DNA of 64,000 nucleotides, taken from contig MGEH01000018.1 of NCBI GenBank assembly GCA_001791275.1, positions 1-64,000 on the forward strand. The letters are read 5' to 3'. Under the pieces are notes generated by a model. It saw only the letters and a program-made list of their open reading frames with translations, was not told where the DNA came from and ran no database searches. Positions 9,737 through 21,065 of the stretch are shown one piece after another (within the stretch, counting starts at the first letter, position 1; every line of letters begins with the position of its first letter). The stretch comes from Candidatus Uhrbacteria bacterium RIFCSPHIGHO2_12_FULL_60_25 (GTDB lineage Bacteria > Patescibacteriota > Patescibacteriia > 2-12-FULL-60-25). A program made the position numbers and the translations under genes.

Positions 9737-12325
9737 TCAGCGTTTTCGCGAACATGTTCGCCGTGTATTGATCAGGCGCACGAACGCGGCGCGCGAAGGC
9801 GCATGCAGGTTTTTCAGGAGCGTCTGTCCTGGGCGTTCGCCCATGTCGAGGAGCAGTTCCAGACGGAAGGCGATTTCCTGCGTGGGGCAGAACACACGGC
9901 TCCACGCCAGGCAGGGGTCGAGGGAGCGCGGATTCATGTGCAGCTCGTCGTATTCGATGGCCAAGCTCCGTCGCTCGTTGATCGTCTTGCGGAGCGCGTC
10001 GGGATGCAGGAAGAGCGCCATGCGCGAATCCGGGTCGCGCAGATTCCTCATCACGTCCTCCTGCCCCAGCCGGTACGACGCCAACAACCAGTACGCGAGC
10101 GCCAGCGGTCGAGCGTCGTCCGTGAGGAGTTCAGGATATTGTTGGAGGAACGTCTTCGCGTTTCCTGCTCTGAACCCGCTCACGCGCAACACGCCCAATG
10201 CTTCCTCGGTCGTGTGTTCCGATCGCGTCGGATCAGGATCAAGCGCATGCACGCCCACGGCGATGCGTTTTGCTTCAGCCGCCTGGTCCGGTGTGAGTCC
10301 TTCCCGCGTCTCCGTGAGCGTCCGCCTCTTGCCGTCGGTCGTCGGAAGATGCGAGTCCATGAGCGCATCGCGGTTGAACACGAGCGCGCGCGTGTTCTCA
10401 TTCAGGCGGCGCGTGAACGTGTCGCCTGAGATGCCGAGAACGGCCTTGAGCCGGATGAGCGAATGACAGAGCTGCGTCGGGTTCACGTGTTTCAGATCCG
10501 TGAATGCACGCAGGTGCAGCATGGCGTCGCGCCGGTTCCATCCGGCGAATTCAAAGGCCTGGATGGCCGTCGCGCATTCCGGCACGCTCCGTTTCGCGAT
10601 CGACGGGGGTGGGCTGTATTCATCCTCCGCACCCCGCTTCTTCGGCGGCGTTTCAGCAATTTTGTGCAGGATCCGTCGCGGGGAGACGTCAACGCGGATG
10701 CCGCGCGCTTCAAGGTTCGTGCGGCGGCGGACGAGCGCCGTGGCGCTCAGCCGCAGGGCTCGGTCCGCGCAGAGCACGAGCCGTTCCACGGCGCGTGGCG
10801 TGGGTGAGCCGAGCGCAGCGCGGATGCGCGCGCCGAGGACGTCCACGGGAACTTCCGTGATGGTCGGCGTGACCGATACGATGTAGGCGGCCACGTGCTT
10901 CTTTACACCGAAGTCGTGTACGAACATGCCGTGGAGTTCAAGGAGACGGTCAACGGCTTCTGGCGCGTACACCCGGCGGTGGGAGAGCAGGGCATCCAGT
11001 GCATGCGCGTTCCATCCGGCATCCAGAAGCCGTCCCAGAACAGCGAGGACTGCTTCTTCCGATCCGAGCCATGCGGTGAGCCAGTGGATGCGCATCATGC
11101 GCCGTTCATCGTCATAACCGAAGCCCTCGAGCTTGCGTGCGACATTGTTCATCGCCAGTGGCTTCGGAACATTTTCGTCCTCCAAGATGGACGTCGGTTC
11201 CTCGGTCGCATCCGCGTCCGGTGGTTCCGGGATGGGCTCGTCCGGTTCGTCCGGGATCGTGGCGGACAGGGTGTGCTGTGGTGATTGCCGCACGACGAGG
11301 ATGGCGGGGTTCGCATCCGGGTGTTCGCCGGATGCGATGAGTTCCGCACGGCGCAGGGCTGTGACGTCCGCGTCCTGTAGGAGAAGGGCAGGGGCTTTGA
11401 GAAGCAGTCGTTCCACGTCTGCCTGGGTTGGGAACGGGAGCGCGGCGCGGATTCGTTCCTCGAACGTCTCGAGCGATGCCTGCAGGATGGACGGTTTCTT
11501 CACGAGCATCACGATAACGCGCATGAGGGGCATGCCGAACGTCTCCGTGAGTACGCGCTGGATCTCCCTGATGCGTTCCGAACCGGCGAGTCGGAAATAG
11601 TTGTACGCGCCGAGTGCATCGCGCAGGTCGGCCTTCGTCCATCCGCTGTCGAGCAGGTCCGAAAGGAACGCGAGGCCAGCGTGGTACGATCCGAGGTCCT
11701 TGTAGAGGCGTTCGAGGTACCGCACGCACAGCGTCTCGTTGTACCGCAGGTCGCGCATGAGCTGTTCGAGCCGGTTCCGCGCCGTCTGTTCCGCCTGGAG
11801 CGCATGCCAGAGCGCCGGGTGGTCTAACTGGTACGTCGCTTCGGTGATGCCGCGCGCCACGCACTCGCTCACGATCACGGGATTGAGCGAGAAGTACGCC
11901 GGGAAGGCGTACAGGAACGTCCAGCGGCGCGCGTTGTCCGGAACGAGTTTGGCGGCGCTCTCGAGGAGCGCCGAGAACGTCTCGCCGTCAACGGTGAACG
12001 TCTTCGGCGAGCGGCGCATCATGCGCAGCACGTCCTGCCGGCTCAGTCCCTGGCAGAGGTTCAGGATGCGCGAGACGCGCGGTTCCACGTTTCCGATCGA
12101 GGACCGGTAGTCCGCGGGATTGTCGCGGAGAATCTCTTCCGCCAGATCGGGGCCGAACACGGCGGACATGGCGTCCACCATGGAGCAGGCTTCCTCGGCC
12201 GAGAGGGAGTTGAACGCGCCGATGCGGCGCAGCTGGATGATCAGATTGGGGTCCAGCCCCAGGCGCCGCCCAACGGCGACGTAGGCGTCGATGGGCGTTG
12301 CGGTATTCCGCGCATCGTCGTTCAT
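9737..12325 (-). CDS. Hypothetical 862-aa helical-repeat protein, mTERF-like motifs
   Basis: Intact ORF with AGAAAGGAA upstream; mTERF-like units such as LCQGLSRQDVLRMMRRSPKTFTVDGETFSALLESAAKL. Confidence 0.8.
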   Translation of the reverse strand: MNDDARNTATPIDAYVAVGRRLGLDPNLIIQLRRIGAFNSLSAEEACSMVDAMSAVFGPDLAEEILRDNPADYRSSIGNVEPRVSRILNLCQGLSRQDVLRMMRRSPKTFTVDGETFSALLESAAKLVPDNARRWTFLYAFPAYFSLNPVIVSECVARGITEATYQLDHPALWHALQAEQTARNRLEQLMRDLRYNETLCVRYLERLYKDLGSYHAGLAFLSDLLDSGWTKADLRDALGAYNYFRLAGSERIREIQRVLTETFGMPLMRVIVMLVKKPSILQASLETFEERIRAALPFPTQADVERLLLKAPALLLQDADVTALRRAELIASGEHPDANPAILVVRQSPQHTLSATIPDEPDEPIPEPPDADATEEPTSILEDENVPKPLAMNNVARKLEGFGYDDERRMMRIHWLTAWLGSEEAVLAVLGRLLDAGWNAHALDALLSHRRVYAPEAVDRLLELHGMFVHDFGVKKHVAAYIVSVTPTITEVPVDVLGARIRAALGSPTPRAVERLVLCADRALRLSATALVRRRTNLEARGIRVDVSPRRILHKIAETPPKKRGAEDEYSPPPSIAKRSVPECATAIQAFEFAGWNRRDAMLHLRAFTDLKHVNPTQLCHSLIRLKAVLGISGDTFTRRLNENTRALVFNRDALMDSHLPTTDGKRRTLTETREGLTPDQAAEAKRIAVGVHALDPDPTRSEHTTEEALGVLRVSGFRAGNAKTFLQQYPELLTDDARPLALAYWLLASYRLGQEDVMRNLRDPDSRMALFLHPDALRKTINERRSLAIEYDELHMNPRSLDPCLAWSRVFCPTQEIAFRLELLLDMGERPGQTLLKNLHAPSRAAFVRLINTRRTCSRKR

Positions 12326-12421
12326 GACGATTCCTTTCTGTATGGAGTTGGTTTTTCAAAGGGACGTTCCGGGCATTCAAACATGAAATGACGGTGCCGT
12401 CGAGATGTCTCATATAGAAAG

Positions 12422-12451
12422 GAGCCGACCGTCGAGGATGACGGACGGCTC
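12422..12451 (-). terminator. Terminator hairpin, shared family
   Basis: GAGCCGACCGTC-GAGGAT-GACGGACGGCTC; U-rich on minus strand; downstream of 203-aa gene. Confidence 0.65.
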
Positions 12452-12463
12452 GCAGATAAGAGC

Positions 12464-13075
12464 TCAATTGTCGTTGTCTTTGAACGTGCGCGAGTTTTTC
12501 ACTTGCTCGCGCAGTGCGTTGAAGTTCGAATCGAGCAACGTGGCCAGCTCACGCAGCATCATGACACGGGGCTTGCCCGCTGGCTGGCGCAACACCATAC
12601 GCGCGACGAACTCCGGACGGAACTTGCCCGCGGTGTACGCCATGATGGCGCCGATCACCGACACCTTGTTCTTGGAGGCGGGAATGCGCAGTCGCTTGAT
12701 GATCTCGTCGCGCTTGGCGGCATGTTTCTTCTCCCCGTCCGCCTTGGCCCGGAGGAGTTCCATGCGGATGCCGTCCTTCACGATCACCTCCGCTTCCCGT
12801 GCATCCCGCCGTCGGTCGGTTGTCTGTGTCGACTTCTTGGCTGATGCGGAGCTCTTCTTTTGGGATGGCACCACGAGTGGTCTGTTGACCATGCCGTTTT
12901 TCTCACTTCCGTTCGCGCTCCCGATGGCCGCATGTGAGTGGCCGTTGGCGGCCAGCACGTACAGTCGATTGAATCCGGCCTGATGCTTGCGGCTCAAGCA
13001 GCTGATCGCCGGGGCAAGCAGGGTGCGAATGGCCGTGAGCTCGTCGAGAGTCGTTGCGCCGTGTGTTCTGGGCAT
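12464..13075 (-). CDS. Hypothetical 203-aa protein homologous to the C-terminal half of the 581-aa neighbour
   Basis: Shares TAxxFRPxFxARxxxxxPAxxxxxxLxELATL with ORF 13267..15012. Confidence 0.75.
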   Translation of the reverse strand: MPRTHGATTLDELTAIRTLLAPAISCLSRKHQAGFNRLYVLAANGHSHAAIGSANGSEKNGMVNRPLVVPSQKKSSASAKKSTQTTDRRRDAREAEVIVKDGIRMELLRAKADGEKKHAAKRDEIIKRLRIPASKNKVSVIGAIMAYTAGKFRPEFVARMVLRQPAGKPRVMMLRELATLLDSNFNALREQVKNSRTFKDNDN

Positions 13076-13214
13076 GTTCGCTCCATGGATTTTGAAGTGC
13101 GATAATGGCGTTTTGTGTCGATATTCATGAGGTTCTTATCAAAGAGAACGCGTTGCGTCAACCAGGATGACAGGATGACAGGAGGGTGAGATCGCAGGTT
13201 TGCAGGGAACGAAA

Positions 13215-13243
13215 GAGCCGCACGTCGAGGGGACGTGCGGCTC
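13215..13243 (-). terminator. Terminator hairpin, shared family
   Basis: GAGCCGCACGTC-GAGGG-GACGTGCGGCTC followed on minus strand by TTTCGTT. Confidence 0.7.
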
Positions 13244-13266
13244 GGTGAGGCGCCGACGACTTAGGG

Positions 13267-15012
13267 TCAGTCGGTGAGCCTCGAGGCAATTTCCTTGGCT
13301 TCGGTGCGAAGCTTCTTCACGGGCATGGAGTAGAGCGTGGCAAGCTCCGTGAGCAAGGACTCGTGCTGGTCGGCCGGCAGATCCTTGAGAAGACGAGCGA
13401 TGAATCCGGGGCGGAACCGCGCCGCCGTGCCGGCGATCAGGCTGCCAAGCGTGCGCCTGCCGGGCCCATCGGGTTTCACACCGTACAGGGTCAGGATCGT
13501 GTCCTGCGCGGTTCTGTAGTCGAGCGGTCCCTTGTGCCTGGCGCGCAGGAGATTGAGTCGGTGTTCGTCCGTCTGCTTGAGCGGCACCACATGACCGTTG
13601 ATGTGCATGCCTATTGCACGCGAGAGATTGATCTTGCGCTTGGGCGCGGGCGCCGCTCTGGCAGCCGGAGTTGCGGGAGTCTCGCGCTTGGACGCGCGCG
13701 GTTGCTTGCCTTGTCCGGCCACGGGTTGCGCGGTGTCGGGCGCCGGCCCGACGGCCTCGGCGAGCGCGTCGACGGCCGCGCGCATGTGCTTGAGATGCGC
13801 ATGGACGTCTGCAGGCATCGCGCCGGATGTGCCAGCCAGGTCGCAGAGCCGGTCGAAGTCTGCGCGCAGTTCGCTGTTCAACGCGCCCAGAAAGGGCGCG
13901 AAGCGCTGGCGGATGCCGGCGATGGTCGCCGCGTTGTTCGGGGTCGGTTCGGTCACGTGTTCCTCCTGTGGGTTTGGATGCTCGGATGTGGGATTCGGAT
14001 GTGCGGACGTTTGGTCGACGACCGCCGAAGTACGTGCGGGGAGGTGACTCGTTTCGCGCACCTGCTGGTGCCAGATCGAGGCGATCTCGTCGCCGTGCAC
14101 GATGCTGAACGGCGCCTTGAGCATGACTTTGGCGAGCATTGCCGCGGCTTCAGCCATGTCCATCGGCTCGTTGTGCGTCTGCAAGCGGAAGAGGAGCGTC
14201 CGCATGCGGAAGTTCGACTCGTCCGACCAGTACACGTAGCGCTCCACATGTGAAGGGAGGGTGATGACCGACCCTTGCTGCATGAGCTTGAGGTAGCGGC
14301 GTTCGCCCCGCTCACGGAAGCGCAGGAAGTGCATGAGCGGGTAGCGCTCTTTGCGCGCTTCGTAACGCGCGCCTTCCCGCCGGATTGCGGAGAATGCGAG
14401 GAGCAGATAGAGGAGCGCGCCCGCTTCACGCAGGGCGACCTTCTCCGGATCCGCTCTCACGCCTTCTCTGATCACCGGTTCCTGCGAGTGCAGGTCCACC
14501 AGGTTGCTCCAGAGTTCGTTCCAGTGGGAGCCGAACAGCCGCGCGCAGATGCGCTGCACGAGTTTTGGTTCGTTCAGGCTTCGATTGCCCCGCTGGTCCG
14601 CCATCGTGACGGCCAGGATCCGACCCTTGCCGTTCAACAGAAGCGGCAGGATGTTCGTCAGATCTCGAATGGATGGTTCCACGGTTCCGCACAGATCGAG
14701 GTGGAACATGTCCAGACGGGCCTGGTTGTCGTTCGCTTTGTGGACCGCGGTCGGCAGGTCGGCGAGGGCGCGCACGTGATTGGCGAGCGGGTACGCATGG
14801 CGCAGTTTTCGCGCGCTGGCCGGGTCGTGTTCGACGAGCCAGCAGTGCGTCGGGGGGATGTGTAGCGACCGCCAGCGCTCGTACTCGAGCCCGGCGCCGC
14901 CCATGGTGGCGATCTGCGCGTGTACAAGTGACACGCAGTCCGCCAACAGCGTCAGGATTTGATCGATCACGCGCTGCTTGCTGGTAAGGCTAGCTGGGTC
15001 CATTGAAGTCAC
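13267..15012 (-). CDS. Hypothetical 581-aa protein, possible Rossmann/SAM-methyltransferase-like N-terminal domain
   Basis: Alternating strand pattern CWLVEHD...LDMFHLDLCGT...GRILAVTMADQRGNR; fold assignment by eye only. Confidence 0.7.
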   Translation of the reverse strand: MTSMDPASLTSKQRVIDQILTLLADCVSLVHAQIATMGGAGLEYERWRSLHIPPTHCWLVEHDPASARKLRHAYPLANHVRALADLPTAVHKANDNQARLDMFHLDLCGTVEPSIRDLTNILPLLLNGKGRILAVTMADQRGNRSLNEPKLVQRICARLFGSHWNELWSNLVDLHSQEPVIREGVRADPEKVALREAGALLYLLLAFSAIRREGARYEARKERYPLMHFLRFRERGERRYLKLMQQGSVITLPSHVERYVYWSDESNFRMRTLLFRLQTHNEPMDMAEAAAMLAKVMLKAPFSIVHGDEIASIWHQQVRETSHLPARTSAVVDQTSAHPNPTSEHPNPQEEHVTEPTPNNAATIAGIRQRFAPFLGALNSELRADFDRLCDLAGTSGAMPADVHAHLKHMRAAVDALAEAVGPAPDTAQPVAGQGKQPRASKRETPATPAARAAPAPKRKINLSRAIGMHINGHVVPLKQTDEHRLNLLRARHKGPLDYRTAQDTILTLYGVKPDGPGRRTLGSLIAGTAARFRPGFIARLLKDLPADQHESLLTELATLYSMPVKKLRTEAKEIASRLTD

Positions 15013-15074
15013 GCTTGGGTTGGGGTTGGGAGTTGGGGTGAAAAGTACGCCCCTGAAAGGCAGGGGAACGGATG

Positions 15075-15103
15075 AATCTATCAGGAATTGTCGGTTCGGT
15101 CAA
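15075..15103 (-). promoter_or_regulatory. Putative sigma70 promoter of the 581-aa gene
   Basis: Minus strand TTGACC-17 nt-TAGATT. Confidence 0.55.
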
Positions 15104-15186
15104 GAGCGGTCTTTCCGCGTATTCTTGGCTTAATGGAGTGACGGAATGCGTCTCCGGAGCCGCCCGTCGCAAGCCGTCTGTCTGAC

Positions 15187-15215
15187 TTGACAGTTTGCCT
15201 GATTTTCGATAGGGT
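15187..15215 (+). promoter_or_regulatory. Putative promoter of the HTH/GHKL operon
   Basis: TTGACA-17 nt-TAGGGT. Confidence 0.5.
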
Positions 15216-15293
15216 CACTTGAAACTTGGAACGCGTTTCCAAGCGGACATTCGACAACCCATCACTTCAACAACCTTCCCACATGGAGCGACC

Positions 15294-16445
15294 ATGGGAG
15301 CAAGTGACAACATCCTGAAGGGCATTCAAGAGGCGCGGGACGCCATGCTCAAGATATCGCCGCTCCAGAAGGAGCTGCGCCACCTCGTCCGCCAACGGTT
15401 GGACAAGGAGGGCTGGAACGTGGGTGAGGCCGCCCGATATGGCGGCACCTCATGGACCGACCTGAAGCGTTTTCTCGACGGCACGGGGGCTGTGGCGAGC
15501 GACAAGAAGCTCGCGGCATTCGGGAAGATTGCCAAGCGCGCAGATCTGGCGACGGAGATTGGGCGATACGTTCAACGTTTCTCGGCGACGCGGTTTCTCG
15601 TCATGTCGCTGTTCAGCAAGGACGTCATCAGGACGGCCTTTGACCTCATTGAGCAGTACGTTGCGAAGCAGCCGATCCGCATGGAGGACTATGCGAATGT
15701 GTTCGGCGAGTACGCGCCGATCGTGACCGGTGTGCTGGTGTACGCGTACGACGGCTGCAAGAAGCTCGAGGATCCGAAGGTGCAGGAGGCGGTCACTAAC
15801 GTCCTCCTCGCCGACGACTTTGAGCATCGGGTCACGCAGGCGCTCGAGACTCATACGCGCACGATCGTGGCGGAGCGAGAGCGACTGGATTCGCTCGTGG
15901 AGCAGCTGATGCCGATGTACGGCAACAGCAAGCAGCTGGCCAAGGCGCTGAAGATCTCGGAAGACATCTTCTACCGACCTAAGGACCGTGGATCCATGGC
16001 ACTTCTGACTCGCGTGAGAGCGGTCTGCGAACACGAGCTCGCGCGGCTGCACGCCGAAGGTGGGGCGCCGCGAACACAGATCGACGCGTCTGCGCAGGTA
16101 ACGGCGCGTATCGCGACTGCAGATCCGCCTGTCCTCACGCAACAGAATTTCGCGTTCATCGATCAGGTCCCCACCAAGGACGAGCTCGCTTTCACGCGCC
16201 AGACGCTCGTGCTGGCCCGGGTGATGCTCGAACGGCTGGTGCAGATTCGCGACGACAAGAAGCGGCTGCACATTCTGAACGACTTGAGCGGTTCCGTGGA
16301 GGATCTCGTGCTGGCAGCCAAGCTGTTCAGCTATGAGTATCCCAACGGCGTTCTACGCCTGTTCGACGCCGAACGTGAAGGCATGCAACTCTCGAAACAA
16401 CAAACCGACGGCGCCCCGCGCCGTTCAACGTTCAGGAGGAAATAA
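15294..16445 (+). CDS. Hypothetical protein with N-terminal HTH-like segment
   Basis: RLDKEGWNVGEAARYGGTSWTDLKRFLDG resembles a helix-turn-helix; stop overlaps next ATG (TAATG). Confidence 0.75.
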   Translation: MGASDNILKGIQEARDAMLKISPLQKELRHLVRQRLDKEGWNVGEAARYGGTSWTDLKRFLDGTGAVASDKKLAAFGKIAKRADLATEIGRYVQRFSATRFLVMSLFSKDVIRTAFDLIEQYVAKQPIRMEDYANVFGEYAPIVTGVLVYAYDGCKKLEDPKVQEAVTNVLLADDFEHRVTQALETHTRTIVAERERLDSLVEQLMPMYGNSKQLAKALKISEDIFYRPKDRGSMALLTRVRAVCEHELARLHAEGGAPRTQIDASAQVTARIATADPPVLTQQNFAFIDQVPTKDELAFTRQTLVLARVMLERLVQIRDDKKRLHILNDLSGSVEDLVLAAKLFSYEYPNGVLRLFDAEREGMQLSKQQTDGAPRRSTFRRK

Positions 16446-18430
16446 TGACTTCGAAGAATCCAGCCAGCATCCGGCCGATTACCCCGAGTCTCGGGGAGGG
16501 CAACCTCAAGCAGATGTTCAGCGGCAAGCCGTTCATCCACTGCCTTCTTGAGATGATCAAGAACTCACGCGACTATCGCGCGAAGCTCATTGCCGTGTTC
16601 TTCCAGGGCCGCGATCGGTTCGTGGCATTGGACAACGGAAGGGGCATGGGCGCCAAGAACCGTGACGGGTTCGCTTCGGTGAATCACACCACGGCCACCA
16701 GCCGTGATCAGTCGGGCCGCTTCGGGTCCGGCACCAAGCACATGCTGTACAGCCACGCCACGCAGGTGGAGGTGCTGACGGCGCCGGAGGAGGAGCCTGA
16801 CTGGGTGTATCGGTTCAGCTTCACCACCGAATCCTACGAGCGGATGGTTCTCCGTAAGGAGCAGTTCCTGCCCGAGCGGATGCCGAAGACGAGCCAGACA
16901 TGGCCGCATCCGTTTCCGTTCGGTACGCAGATCGTCTACACCCTGGCAGAGCCAACGAGCCGCGGCATTATGCGCGGCGAGAAGTTGGCGGCGGAGCTGG
17001 CGTCGCGGTTGCCGCTCAAGTTCCGTGACATCCTCACGGTGGACGGCGAACCGCTGCCAGAGAAGAAGCTCGTGGGCCGTCAGTTCGTCCTGAATGAGAA
17101 CCACTCCAAGCTCGGGCCGGTGAGCGTGGAGCTCTATCGGCCGGAGCGGCGACGTTCCGACGATGACCTCCGCATGGCGGTGGTCGAGGTCGGCGAAACG
17201 CCCATACGGAACGTGTTTCGCGTGATGGGCGACGTGAGCGACATGGTACCGGACGTGTTCCGGCTCGATGTGGTGTGCGGCACCATCACCGTTCCCGCGT
17301 TTCGCGACTATGCGAACGAGGACCGAAACACGTTCAGCCCCCGGATCGGCGACGATCCGCGGATCATGCCGTTCGTCCGTTTCCTCGAGCAGATCGCACC
17401 AAGCGTGCAGCAGGCGCTTGAGATCAAGCTGTCCGCGCAGAGCGAGGACGAAGCGGATCGCGCGGCCATGGACGAGCTGCGCGAGATGATCACCGGCGCC
17501 TACGGTCCGGAGCTCGTGGACCGCGATGGCCCCGGAATAGACCCTCCGGTCGACGGCCCCGTCGATCCGCCTATCGAGCCGGACCCCATCTCCCTCTCGC
17601 TCCGTCACGAGTTCGAGCCCGGTGAGGAGATCGACGTGAAGGTGCGACTCCACGGAGATGCAGCCGAGCACTACACGGCGAACGACCTCCAATGGCACAC
17701 CACGCGTGCGAATGCCACGAACATCCGCGTGCTGCCGGACGGCCTGCGCATGACCGCGAACCATTTGGGACGCGGGGTAATCAGCGTAGACATTCCGGGC
17801 ACGCCCTACGGTGCGTCCACCCAGTACGACGTGGTGGCGCAGCGCGTGTTCCGCCTGTCCAGTTCCAACGTCAGCACCAAGGTCAGCAAGAACGTGATGC
17901 TGCTCGGCGTGAACGTGGATCGCCTCAAAGGCAAGCTCGTGTGGAAACACACCGGCGTGGGTCGTCTGGATCCGAACGGCGCCAGGGCGGACTTCAAGTC
18001 CAACATTCCCGGCGTCGCCGAGGTTACGGCGTACGGTGCCGATGATCCGCGGGTGCAGGGCGTGTGCGTGATCAAGGTGAGGCCGGGCAAGGACGCGATC
18101 ATTCGCATCCGTAACCTCCGCTTCATGGAGAAGACGATGGCCTGCCACTCCGGCATGCCACCGGTCGCCATGAGCAAGGGCGGCAACGACAGCGACAGCG
18201 TTCACGTGCTGACGGTGGTCAGCCAGGCGCACGGCTACAAGGAGGCCCGCGAGCGCAGAGAGCTTCCGATGTTTCTCGCGCTCGCCACTGCGCTCGAGTA
18301 CGCCCGTTTCGAGCGGCTGGTCATCAATCCTGACGACGTGGTGGATCAGCGCGACGTCAGGACGGTGCAGGAAGACATCACCAGCACAGCCTGGGAGGTG
18401 TTCGAGGAGCTCGTTCGCTCCAAGAAGTGA
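16445..18430 (+). CDS. GHKL-superfamily ATPase (Hsp90/MORC/histidine-kinase-like), Ig-like C-terminal region
   Basis: N box LLEMIKNSRD, G1 box ALDNGRGMG, G2 box GRFGSGTKHML. Confidence 0.85.
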   Translation: MTSKNPASIRPITPSLGEGNLKQMFSGKPFIHCLLEMIKNSRDYRAKLIAVFFQGRDRFVALDNGRGMGAKNRDGFASVNHTTATSRDQSGRFGSGTKHMLYSHATQVEVLTAPEEEPDWVYRFSFTTESYERMVLRKEQFLPERMPKTSQTWPHPFPFGTQIVYTLAEPTSRGIMRGEKLAAELASRLPLKFRDILTVDGEPLPEKKLVGRQFVLNENHSKLGPVSVELYRPERRRSDDDLRMAVVEVGETPIRNVFRVMGDVSDMVPDVFRLDVVCGTITVPAFRDYANEDRNTFSPRIGDDPRIMPFVRFLEQIAPSVQQALEIKLSAQSEDEADRAAMDELREMITGAYGPELVDRDGPGIDPPVDGPVDPPIEPDPISLSLRHEFEPGEEIDVKVRLHGDAAEHYTANDLQWHTTRANATNIRVLPDGLRMTANHLGRGVISVDIPGTPYGASTQYDVVAQRVFRLSSSNVSTKVSKNVMLLGVNVDRLKGKLVWKHTGVGRLDPNGARADFKSNIPGVAEVTAYGADDPRVQGVCVIKVRPGKDAIIRIRNLRFMEKTMACHSGMPPVAMSKGGNDSDSVHVLTVVSQAHGYKEARERRELPMFLALATALEYARFERLVINPDDVVDQRDVRTVQEDITSTAWEVFEELVRSKK

Positions 18431-18441
18431 TGGCACTCTCA

Positions 18442-18478
18442 AAACGCCCGCATGCGTAACTCACGCATGCGGGCGTTT
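18442..18478 (+). terminator. Terminator after GHKL ATPase gene
   Basis: Perfect 16-bp stem AAACGCCCGCATGCGT-AACTC-ACGCATGCGGGCGTTT. Confidence 0.8.
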
Positions 18479-18506
18479 CTGTTGTTGATATAGTTCATAT
18501 AAACGA

Positions 18507-18538
18507 AAACCGGGACACGTGAGTGCGTATCCCGGTTT
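18507..18538 (-). terminator. Terminator of the coiled-coil gene
   Basis: AAACCGGGA...TCCCGGTTT inverted repeat just downstream of the minus-strand stop. Confidence 0.55.
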
Positions 18539-18545
18539 AAGGTCG

Positions 18546-20342
18546 TTACGCTCTTTTGGCTTTCGCCTTGGCCTTGGCCACGGACTTCGTTTCGAGATAG
18601 CGGGCGTTCTTCTTTTCCCTGAAGGTGGCGAACCCGGCGCGGATGGTAGTGGCATCCAACGCATGCTTCCCCATGAAACTGATCGCCTCGTCCGCATGCG
18701 CATAGGTCAGCTTGGAGATCCATGTCGTGCGGGCCTTGAAGTAGATCCAGCGGGAGCGGCTCGCCTGTTGCCGAGCGTTTGCTTCGCCGGTGCTCACCAG
18801 CTCGCGGTCCGCCTTATAGAGGGCGTGCAGGTACGGCAGGTAGTGCCGGTGCTCCTCCTCGGTGCAGCGCCCGAGTTCCACCAGCACCCGGAGCGCGTTC
18901 TTCATGTTCGTGCCGCTCAGGAAGTGCTTGTTCTGCACGGTGAGTACGTAGTACACGCACAGGACCATCTCCTTGAGCTCATCGAGCCGGCACGAGTCGA
19001 GCCGGTCGCTGTTTGGCGGCGCATCGTCCGCCACCTCGTCGCCGTCATCCGGGGCCTGTGAGATCGGACCCTCGGGATCATCGGCGTCCGGCGGGTTGGA
19101 CTGCGGCGACGATGCCGTCTCCGCGATCAGGAGGGTCGATCTCGGACCGCCGCTGAACTTGTCCAGCTCCTTTGAGACCTGGGCGATGTAACGATCAGCC
19201 AGCGCGAGCGTCTTGGCCAGATGCTCCGAATGTTTCGGTTTCGACTGGTGGATCTCGAGGAGGTCACGCGCCAGTCGGTCCAGGCGCTGTTGGCAGGTGC
19301 GGGTGGACCACTGCGGGTTCCTGAGGAGGGAAGTCGCGGTGCGGTACTGAACCTCGTTGATTCCTCCGTCGCTGTCCTGGAACGGACGGGGGACACCGGC
19401 ACCCAGGTCTTGCTCGCACTCCATGAGTTTGCGCGCGTGTTCGTGCATCTCACCACACAGGCGGCTTATGTCGCGACTGAACGTTTCCACCTCGGTGATG
19501 ATGGTGACGCCGAATTCATTCCAGGCGGCTTCGGCCACGCTGATCAGCTGCTTGCAGCCGGCAACGTGCTGTTGCGCCATCGGCAAACGCTCACGCATGT
19601 CGCGGCATGCTTCCGGACTCGCCTGGAATACCACCGCGCGATCGATGAACGGGTCATCTCCGCTATAGAGGAACGCTTGCGCATCCCTGAAGAGCGGGGA
19701 GTGGTCCGCCAGCTTGGCCTGCCACTCGCTCTGCGCGTGTTGCGCGCGCTTGATCCGATCGTTGAGACTCTGCTCGATGGCAGAGAGTTCGCTCACCGCG
19801 TCGATCAGCATGACGCAGGCCAGGCCCCAGTTGGTGTACTTCTCGCGTTTATACGAGCTATCGTCCCTGGAGACTACCCTGGACATTTCCACGACGGTAC
19901 TGGAAAGCTCTTCGGTGAGCGCATTCTTCTTTTCCAGCTCGGATGCCAGTTCCGAGACGGCCATCAGACCGTATAGGGTCTGTTCGATGGCCGAACGCAG
20001 CGCATGGACGTCCGCGTTCGCAGTCGCCTGGAGCAGCTCTTTCATGCGGAGCTCGCCAAAGACCTTCTCGTATAGCCGTTTGCCTTGCGGCCCCAGCATG
20101 GTGAGCGTTTCACGCGCCTGCTCCATCAGCGCATCGACGATCGTGAGGTGTTCCTTCAGGTCGAGGGTCATATGGACGACGGATCGTGCGCCATGGGCTG
20201 GCACGCGTCCTCTCTCGTTCCCGCGCTGTCTGACCTCTTCATGGATGTCTGTCAGAACTCCAAGGTGGAGTCGTGATGGGTCGACCAGGGAGAAACCGAA
20301 GTCGCCATCAGGCGTCGGAATGCGGATCAGGTACTTAGCCAT
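18546..20342 (-). CDS. Hypothetical ~598-aa largely helical protein
   Basis: Intact ORF; start MAKYLIRIPTPDG preferred; Glu/Lys/Leu-rich helical segments; basic Ala/Lys tail. Confidence 0.75.
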   Translation of the reverse strand: MAKYLIRIPTPDGDFGFSLVDPSRLHLGVLTDIHEEVRQRGNERGRVPAHGARSVVHMTLDLKEHLTIVDALMEQARETLTMLGPQGKRLYEKVFGELRMKELLQATANADVHALRSAIEQTLYGLMAVSELASELEKKNALTEELSSTVVEMSRVVSRDDSSYKREKYTNWGLACVMLIDAVSELSAIEQSLNDRIKRAQHAQSEWQAKLADHSPLFRDAQAFLYSGDDPFIDRAVVFQASPEACRDMRERLPMAQQHVAGCKQLISVAEAAWNEFGVTIITEVETFSRDISRLCGEMHEHARKLMECEQDLGAGVPRPFQDSDGGINEVQYRTATSLLRNPQWSTRTCQQRLDRLARDLLEIHQSKPKHSEHLAKTLALADRYIAQVSKELDKFSGGPRSTLLIAETASSPQSNPPDADDPEGPISQAPDDGDEVADDAPPNSDRLDSCRLDELKEMVLCVYYVLTVQNKHFLSGTNMKNALRVLVELGRCTEEEHRHYLPYLHALYKADRELVSTGEANARQQASRSRWIYFKARTTWISKLTYAHADEAISFMGKHALDATTIRAGFATFREKKNARYLETKSVAKAKAKAKRA

Positions 20343-20470
20343 GCTTTGCCTTTCAGAGTTGGGAATGTCCGCTCCACGTGTGATAGCCGCGTGGAAGTGA
20401 CTTAGGAAACCGTATTTTTCAGCATTTGTCAAGACGAAGAGGCGGCGGTCTGAATTGACGGGGTATGAAG

Positions 20471-20500
20471 AAACCGCACGTCGAGGATGATGTGCGGTTT
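20471..20500 (-). terminator. Terminator hairpin, shared family
   Basis: AAACCGCAC-GTCGAGGATGAT-GTGCGGTTT. Confidence 0.65.
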
Positions 20501-20532
20501 TCGATTCGTCGGTTGGTCTGCGTCCGCTCCGT

Positions 20533-21021
20533 TCAGCCTGAATCGGGACGGACCGGTTTCCTTCCCGTGAGCGAGTCGGAGAGCGTCATGACCGCCTTGA
20601 TCTTCTCGTCCGTTTCGTTGCGGATCAGGACCAGCGATTCGCGGAGGTGGTCCAGGATGTGGATGAGGCCCTCACCCAGACTGCCGAACTTGTGCATCTG
20701 TCCGTGACCTTCATCACGGTAGGTGACATAGGCCGTGCCGATGCGTTTGAACACGTAGCGCCTCGTCGGGAGATTCGGGTCGTACAGAAGATCGAAGTGC
20801 GCGTGTTGTCGCACGAGCGTCGCGATGCTGAACTCGCGGAGGCAGACCGATCGGTCGTCCGAGAATTCGAACGTTTGACCGATGCACATGAGGCCGAGGT
20901 GGTAGCCGTCGGACGAACCGATGACGTTGATTCGATCGGCTATTCGCTTGATCTCGTGATAAAGCCGCTCGAGCCGATACTCATATTCGTCGTGTGCCGG
21001 ATCCGTCAATTCGAACTGCAT
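20533..21021 (-). CDS. Hypothetical 162-aa protein
   Basis: Intact ORF with GGAGAAA-type RBS upstream. Confidence 0.7.
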   Translation of the reverse strand: MQFELTDPAHDEYEYRLERLYHEIKRIADRINVIGSSDGYHLGLMCIGQTFEFSDDRSVCLREFSIATLVRQHAHFDLLYDPNLPTRRYVFKRIGTAYVTYRDEGHGQMHKFGSLGEGLIHILDHLRESLVLIRNETDEKIKAVMTLSDSLTGRKPVRPDSG

Positions 21022-21065
21022 GAGTTTCTCCTTTTCTCAATGTGCAGCGACGATGTAACACGCAG

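Follow-up and report, generated by a model that had tools for sequence, protein, structure and literature searches.

Genes A, B and C of the 64,000-nucleotide window (the whole stretch of Candidatus Uhrbacteria DNA analysed here) may form the core of an exchangeable conflict or defence cassette of ABY1 Patescibacteria, acting on DNA and most likely on foreign DNA (phage, plasmid or mobile element); we give this reading about an even chance. The host bacterium is tiny and probably parasitic. A preliminary description of the locus proposed a two-gene operon; the pairing of a helix-turn-helix (HTH) protein with a GHKL ATPase holds and is conserved, but the unit is bigger, since C and often a methyltransferase-like gene travel along. 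The features of the locus are as follows.

12326..21041, no strand: insert missing at the same site in the relatives examined (synteny)
12464..13075, minus strand: 203-aa protein with a domain also present in the C-terminal half of the 581-aa protein (hhalign P=95)
13267..15012, minus strand: 581-aa protein, divergent from A; Rossmann/methyltransferase-like in its N-terminal half
15187..15215, plus strand: promoter-like TTGACA-17-TAGGGT (pattern match, weak -10)
15294..16445, plus strand: gene A, 383 aa with two XRE/lambda-repressor-like HTH domains, then a helical C-terminal domain (ORF, model, homologues)
15345..15578, plus strand: first HTH domain of A, residues 18-95 (pLDDT ~80-94; Z ~5.8)
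15849..16058, plus strand: second HTH-like domain of A, residues 186-255, containing GNSKQLAKALKISEDIFYR (Z ~6; moderate model confidence)
16434..16447, plus strand: AGGAGG Shine-Dalgarno, then TAATG stop/start overlap of A and B (sequence)
16445..18430, plus strand: gene B, 661 aa, a GHKL ATPase that also has a transducer-like region, a pair of Ig-like domains and a C-terminal domain
16466..17434, plus strand: GHKL and transducer-like region of B, residues 8-330 (E36/N40, D63xGxG, G91-K98)
17582..18082, plus strand: two Ig-like beta domains of B, about residues 380-546 (profile E=2e-11; all-beta in model)
18092..18418, plus strand: C-terminal domain of B, beta hairpins then helices (conserved columns)
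18442..18478, plus strand: intrinsic terminator-like hairpin 3' of B, 16-bp stem
18507..18538, minus strand: terminator-like hairpin after C, 13-bp stem
18546..20342, minus strand: gene C, about 598 aa from the ATG at 20342, in an ORF that opens at a TTG at 20432; convergent with B
20533..21021, minus strand: 162-aa protein, last gene of the insert (ORF only)

In all 18 of the readable homologous loci, A immediately precedes B in the same orientation; this constant order and orientation shows that the pairing is not due to chance. The ORF of A lies where it was first placed and encodes 383 aa, the 384 originally given having included the stop codon. The TAATG overlap is present at 16443-16447, with the TAA of A at 16443-16445 and the ATG of B at 16445-16447; judged from the sequence, A and B are translationally coupled through it. 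The AGGAGG (16434-16439) is directly 5' of the junction, so B could be translated independently or via re-initiation. The overlap itself is not conserved: across homologous loci the junction varies between a 22-nt overlap and gaps of ~118 nt. A promoter had been proposed upstream of the pair, and the TTGACA-17-TAGGGT sequence is there, with 78 bases between the end of the box and the start codon of A. The pattern TTGACA-N17-TANNNT occurs three times in 64 kb against 0.1 expected from shuffles; because the -10 hexamer agrees at 3 of 6 positions only, a promoter before A is plausible and not more. A 625-aa open frame runs antisense to B (16565-18442, minus strand); this and the long antisense ORFs elsewhere are probably artefacts of GC-rich DNA.

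B has the N, G1 and G2 boxes in a Bergerat fold that define the GHKL superfamily, according to Pfam (HATPase_c_3, E=3e-8, 34.1 bits against a cutoff of 25), motifs and fold. The three boxes originally read from the sequence are real and are kept by homologues as E36..N40, D63-N-G-x-G-M and G91-R-F-G-S-G-T-K98. B of the window retains E36, N40, D63, the glycines and K98, and its ATP-binding motifs are intact. Gln replaces the catalytic Glu in three homologues of family f46 and Gly replaces the adenine-binding Asp in three homologues; ATP hydrolysis is consequently not universal, and ATP binding may be more important than hydrolysis in parts of the family.

Structure prediction, which had been suggested for both proteins, supports the GHKL and HTH folds. 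The AlphaFold model of B (16-row alignment) has a mean pLDDT of 80.5 and a pTM of 0.47, at which the placement of domains relative to each other is not to be read from the model. It comprises the GHKL and transducer-like part up to about residue 330, a proline-rich linker of low confidence (355-377), two beta domains and a helical end. GyrB/ParE and Hsp90 rank first in Foldseek; in VIA-align, TRAP1/Hsp90, SMCHD1 and MORC2 are tied at Z 15-16 over residues 8-330, the part that the fold search mainly tests. By sequence profile, the N-terminal part is nearest to MORC2/MORC3 (1e-10), followed by MutL. These Pfam, profile and fold matches place B in the clamp-forming GHKL group. Further along the protein, residues 383-537 match tandem Ig-like chains (profile E=2e-11), and relatives share an x-N-x-x-H-P motif in the C-terminal domain.

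The model of A is weaker than that of B (6-row alignment, pLDDT 63.5), with residues 2-93 well predicted. An HTH near the N-terminus and a second possible one had been noted from the sequence, and both fall in segments that align, at the modest scores of Z 5-6, to the five-helix XRE/lambda-repressor-like fold: residues 18-95 to C.Esp1396I, HipB and lambda repressor (VIA-align, Z ~5.8), and residues 186-255 to POU-specific/XRE folds (VIA-align, Z ~6). The matches of the N-terminal domain thus include HipB and restriction-modification controller proteins. Foldseek gives no match to A below E=0.001, and A of the window has no Pfam HTH match. A helical C-terminal domain of about 85 residues is common to relatives. 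A diverges fast between families: profiles of f1 and f213 match with P=93, those of f1 and f46 with only 30-52 percent. A of f58 has no profile match to the other A groups and, by eye, appears to share only the layout of two HTH-like segments and a helical end.

C contains a long helical or coiled-coil region and a predicted winged-helix-like end. Its homologues adjoin B in five genomes (G034, G028, G091, G600 and G666), and C converges on B in loci of the f1, f10 and f58 types; C of f1 and C of f58 give a profile match of P=63 only. The f46 cassettes located between tig and rny carry a C-type gene that matches C (P=96, E=3e-9) but is placed elsewhere in the cassette.

The F family from the tig-rny cassettes matches the 581-aa protein over its N-terminal half (P=90, E=1.6e-6), and homologues of the 581-aa protein adjoin modules with a second ATPase type, B' (see below). 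Its assignment as a methyltransferase is weak, the best PDB match having E=0.36, and no target-recognition domain was seen. The 162-aa protein has no family match. No nuclease, effector or toxin was recognised in the proteins scanned against curated libraries, and Rfam gave no match at 9-23 kb of the window.

The module is patchily distributed. Among 96 relatives, 5 carry a B homologue; so do 3 of 41 family members and 15 of 380 class genomes. G034 and three genomes from the tig-rny survey (G748, G732, G733) bring the total to 19, and B and B' modules together are found in about two dozen relatives. Named contigs with relatives of B belong to a Ca. Uhrbacteria genome (the nearest named) and a Patescibacteria MAG. 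We take the whole set of B-bearing genomes to belong to class ABY1, where Uhrbacteria are placed. Apart from the window genome and G085, a phylum-wide profile search hit short GHKL-motif stretches scoring 17-35 bits, which are presumably MutL and similar proteins. No relatives were found in three scans of viral contigs, in GenBank phages queried with B of the window or in PLSDB plasmids queried with an f58-type B. The B tree largely follows host families, which points mainly to inheritance with loss plus local exchange of cassettes rather than to rampant transfer. What looked like an A-B fusion of 1107 aa in L071 proved to be a frame artefact, A lying in another frame.

In the window genome, the module lies in an insert of ~8.7 kb before uvrC. 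The block of 203-aa, 581-aa, A, B, C and 162-aa genes is found at this site only in this genome. G001, G002 and G004 have their homologue of the 862-aa mTERF-like gene directly next to uvrC; uvrA takes that position in G005, and G003 has two unrelated ORFs at the site. Each end of the insert was searched by itself; no flanking direct repeats and no integrase were found.

The gene next to the insert (9737-12325, minus strand) codes for the 862 aa with mTERF-like repeats (Pfam mTERF E=1.3e-4, just under the cutoff), and relatives keep it between uvrA and uvrC. It is from the organelles of eukaryotes that mTERF proteins are chiefly known.

Exchange is also apparent in the tig-rny slot. In family f46 the slot is empty, with tig and rny adjacent, in G734, G745, G671 and G731; it holds an A/B/C/D/F/H cassette in G597, G748, G699, G622 and G733, and the same cassette, with no F gene detected, in G732. 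Other cargo occupies it in G676, G742, G695, G585 and G651, including fusions of SNF2 helicase and methyltransferase with DndB-like or HNH-repeat genes (G676, G742 and others). The ties of this cargo to defence are weak: DndB is below the Pfam cutoff, and the mad2 match covers the methyltransferase domain only. One accessory gene domain is common to the alternative cargo and an A-B cassette (P=98). Genus g66 has an f1-type B beside rny in G666 and an f46-type B beside tig in the congener G085; in family f16 the slot holds B' in G055 and B in G544. The tig-rny copies sit a few kb from dnaA/dnaN. In the window genome, tig and rny are on different contigs; the tig match (G000:C31:546-1886) crosses two stop codons near a contig end, as a frameshift, a pseudogene or an assembly error would each produce.

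Several loci illustrate the variable cargo of this interval near dnaA/dnaN in the ABY1 family (L067, L097, L106, L109, L064, L071). Two proteins of 1061 and 1090 aa (L103:6559-9744, L105:5914-9186), which contain SNF2-helicase and methyltransferase regions and lie beside a DndB-like or HNH-repeat neighbour, possibly represent a separate uncharacterised system. At L100:12938-14756 the slot carries an HTH-type 256-aa protein beside a 265-aa protein of ParB-like appearance, in which Pfam finds no ParB match; a different type of clamp may have replaced B there.

The second ATPase type, B', is present in G010, G027, G032, G055 and G058. In G010 it is a 504-aa GHKL protein accompanied by a homologue of the 581-aa protein; it was masked by an antisense ORF, as gene maps from greedy ORF picking may miss genes. 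B' matches the B profile across the GHKL and transducer regions (P=91.5) and is without Ig-like domains; its C-terminal end, read by eye, is similar to that of B. All five loci have a same-strand ORF directly upstream and one convergent ORF, as in the layout of B; a homologue of the 581-aa protein is present at three of the loci. The protein upstream of B' in G032 matches the A profile (3e-9) and the B' ATPase of G055 matches the pooled B profile (9e-9); these two matches tie the B and B' types together. An ADP-ribosylglycohydrolase gene (Pfam 4e-29) adjoins the B'-type module of G010 (L092:8907-9887).

The pairing had been described as matching no known family. This holds in that the GHKL domain of B, a generic one, is all that curated libraries recognise in A and B, and that the comparators T4 RIIA-RIIB and Response_reg_2/HEF_HK give no match for the pair, with the qualification that the unit is the larger cassette. 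Up to E=1, the PADLOC 2023 system models have no hit to the window's A, B or C, and no characterised two-gene system with the same partner was found among the comparators and curated libraries.

The closest comparators are MORC-like proteins. In the consulted part of Iyer et al. 2008 (PMC2292703), MORC/paraMORC1-5 proteins resemble B in having an N-terminal GHKL domain with intact boxes and a transducer/S5-like region; they also resemble the module in their sporadic distribution and their neighbours acting on DNA, and the weakly methyltransferase-like neighbour may be a further resemblance. In contrast, Pfam recognises no SFII helicase or nuclease among the neighbours of B in the window, and the Ig-like domains and the HTH and C partners do not figure in that part of the description. 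The S5 motif GhXhhpXXRhl, given there as unifying MORC proteins, is missing in 18 of 18 B sequences by pattern search. Residues 8-330 of B align to MORC2/3/4 modules of GHKL followed by S5-like transducer (Z ~15); a GHKL-S5 layout with no MORC motif in 18 copies makes B a GHKL-S5-type protein outside the MORC family proper. Among eukaryotic proteins, MORC2 is closest to B by profile (1e-10) and tied by fold (Z ~15), and SMCHD1 is also a GHKL protein. No CW zinc finger, coiled-coil insert or SMC hinge is recognised in B (for the hinge, no Pfam match), and B, unlike these proteins, lies in a bacterial operon with an HTH partner.

Further systems were compared. VcSduA, a GHKL-Shedu protein from an anti-phage locus tested in phage defence (PMC12137116), shares the GHKL ATPase with B, but has a PD-(D/E)xK nuclease (DUF4263), which Pfam does not find in B, and B sits in a multi-gene cassette. 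The Response_reg_2/HEF_HK pair (PMC8011034) likewise combines an HATPase_c_3 protein and a regulator in a conserved pairing; its partner is receiver-like whereas that of B is an HTH protein, and neither PF19191 nor PF19192 is matched by Pfam in A or B. T4 RIIA-RIIB also has a GHKL protein gene beside a partner gene, and RIIA-like proteins share the GHKL structure. It was rejected, as RIIB matches no A group (hhalign, single sequence) and RIIA is weakly like B in the GHKL part only (P=45). The MZA system was rejected as well (MzaB 10.7 bits against a cutoff of 850). For Hsp90, the fold match of B is limited to residues 8-330 and there is no Hsp90 Pfam match. On the tests run, the cassette cannot be filed as MORC, MZA, RIIAB or an HEF_HK pair, and B bears no sign of a Shedu nuclease.

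The defence reading is drawn from context: patchiness, exchange at the slot and the helicase-methyltransferase and DndB-like genes found there. That most paraMORC/MORC genes elsewhere sit in restriction-modification operons (PMC2292703) and that a GHKL-Shedu protein is a tested phage defence (PMC12137116) also speak for it. Counting against it are that no nuclease, effector or toxin and no PADLOC model was recognised, that the alternative cargo is weakly tied to defence and that several homologues have altered ATPase residues. In such a system, A would bind DNA via its paired HTH domains and recruit or load B, which would dimerise upon ATP binding, like its GHKL relatives, and form a clamp that the transducer region shuts. 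Contacts with substrate or partner could be made by the Ig-like arms and the C-terminal domain of B; C, long, helical and DNA-binding-like, might bridge or sense, and the methyltransferase-like partner might mark self DNA or modulate the response. Since no nuclease was recognised, the outcome could be topological trapping, compaction or silencing rather than cutting, as for MORC2, shown to be a DNA clamp that compacts DNA (PMC12216690); silencing or compaction would be as likely as cleavage. The most far-reaching form of this proposal is nuclease-free bacterial immunity or silencing: a MORC/SMCHD1-like GHKL clamp, loaded on foreign DNA by HTH proteins, would shut that DNA down by trapping or compacting it, while ATPase types (B, B') and accessory genes are swapped in a hotspot of ultra-small bacteria. 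We think this specific version improbable.

A chromosomal role near the origin would be the main rival of the defence role. B and its partners would then be an SMCHD1/MORC-like organiser of the cell's own nucleoid near the replication origin, exchanged incidentally. The fold of B is similar to those of SMCHD1 and MORC, and B combines GHKL, Ig-like and C-terminal domains. Proximity of the tig-rny slot to dnaA/dnaN could suit a chromosome function, and a B tree that mostly tracks host families means that much of the history may be vertical, which is compatible with housekeeping. However, a core nucleoid factor should be less dispensable than a gene found in only 15 of 380 class genomes, missing from congeners and leaving empty sites; the window copy is not at tig-rny, and no hinge domain is recognised. 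On balance an organiser seems unlikely.

It is also doubtful that the cassette is a regulated restriction-modification-like (paraMORC) system, with a nuclease hidden in C, the C-terminal domain of B or the 581- and 203-aa proteins and the 581-aa/F protein as methyltransferase. Prokaryotic MORC/paraMORC (GHKL-S5) genes are mostly found in restriction-modification operons (PMC2292703), and a weak BbrUII/HgiDII match, the methyltransferase-like gene within the cassette and the SNF2-methyltransferase cassettes in the same tig-rny slot fit this reading; but no protein scanned matches a nuclease family, and the methyltransferase assignment and missing target-recognition domain weigh against it. A chaperone or regulatory pair, in which A represses its own operon and B serves A or C as an Hsp90-like chaperone or works on either as a ligand sensor, is very unlikely: Hsp90/TRAP1 ties with MORC by fold and A has repressor-type HTH folds, including those of restriction-modification controllers, but MORC and MutL rank above Hsp90 by sequence profile, B has no recognised Hsp90 C-terminal domain and DNA-binding-like partners dominate the cassette.

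Patescibacteria carry few known defence systems per genome (PMC12259885). In ABY1 members of the group, the tig-rny interval is a variable gene slot whose cargo is almost wholly unannotated. In eukaryotes, MORC and SMCHD1 silence DNA, whereas their prokaryotic relatives are known chiefly from restriction-modification operons. With a MORC/MutL-like ATPase, HTH and coiled-coil partners and no recognised nuclease, the defence module proposed here would allow one to test if GHKL ATPases of the clamp type can on their own control foreign DNA in bacteria.
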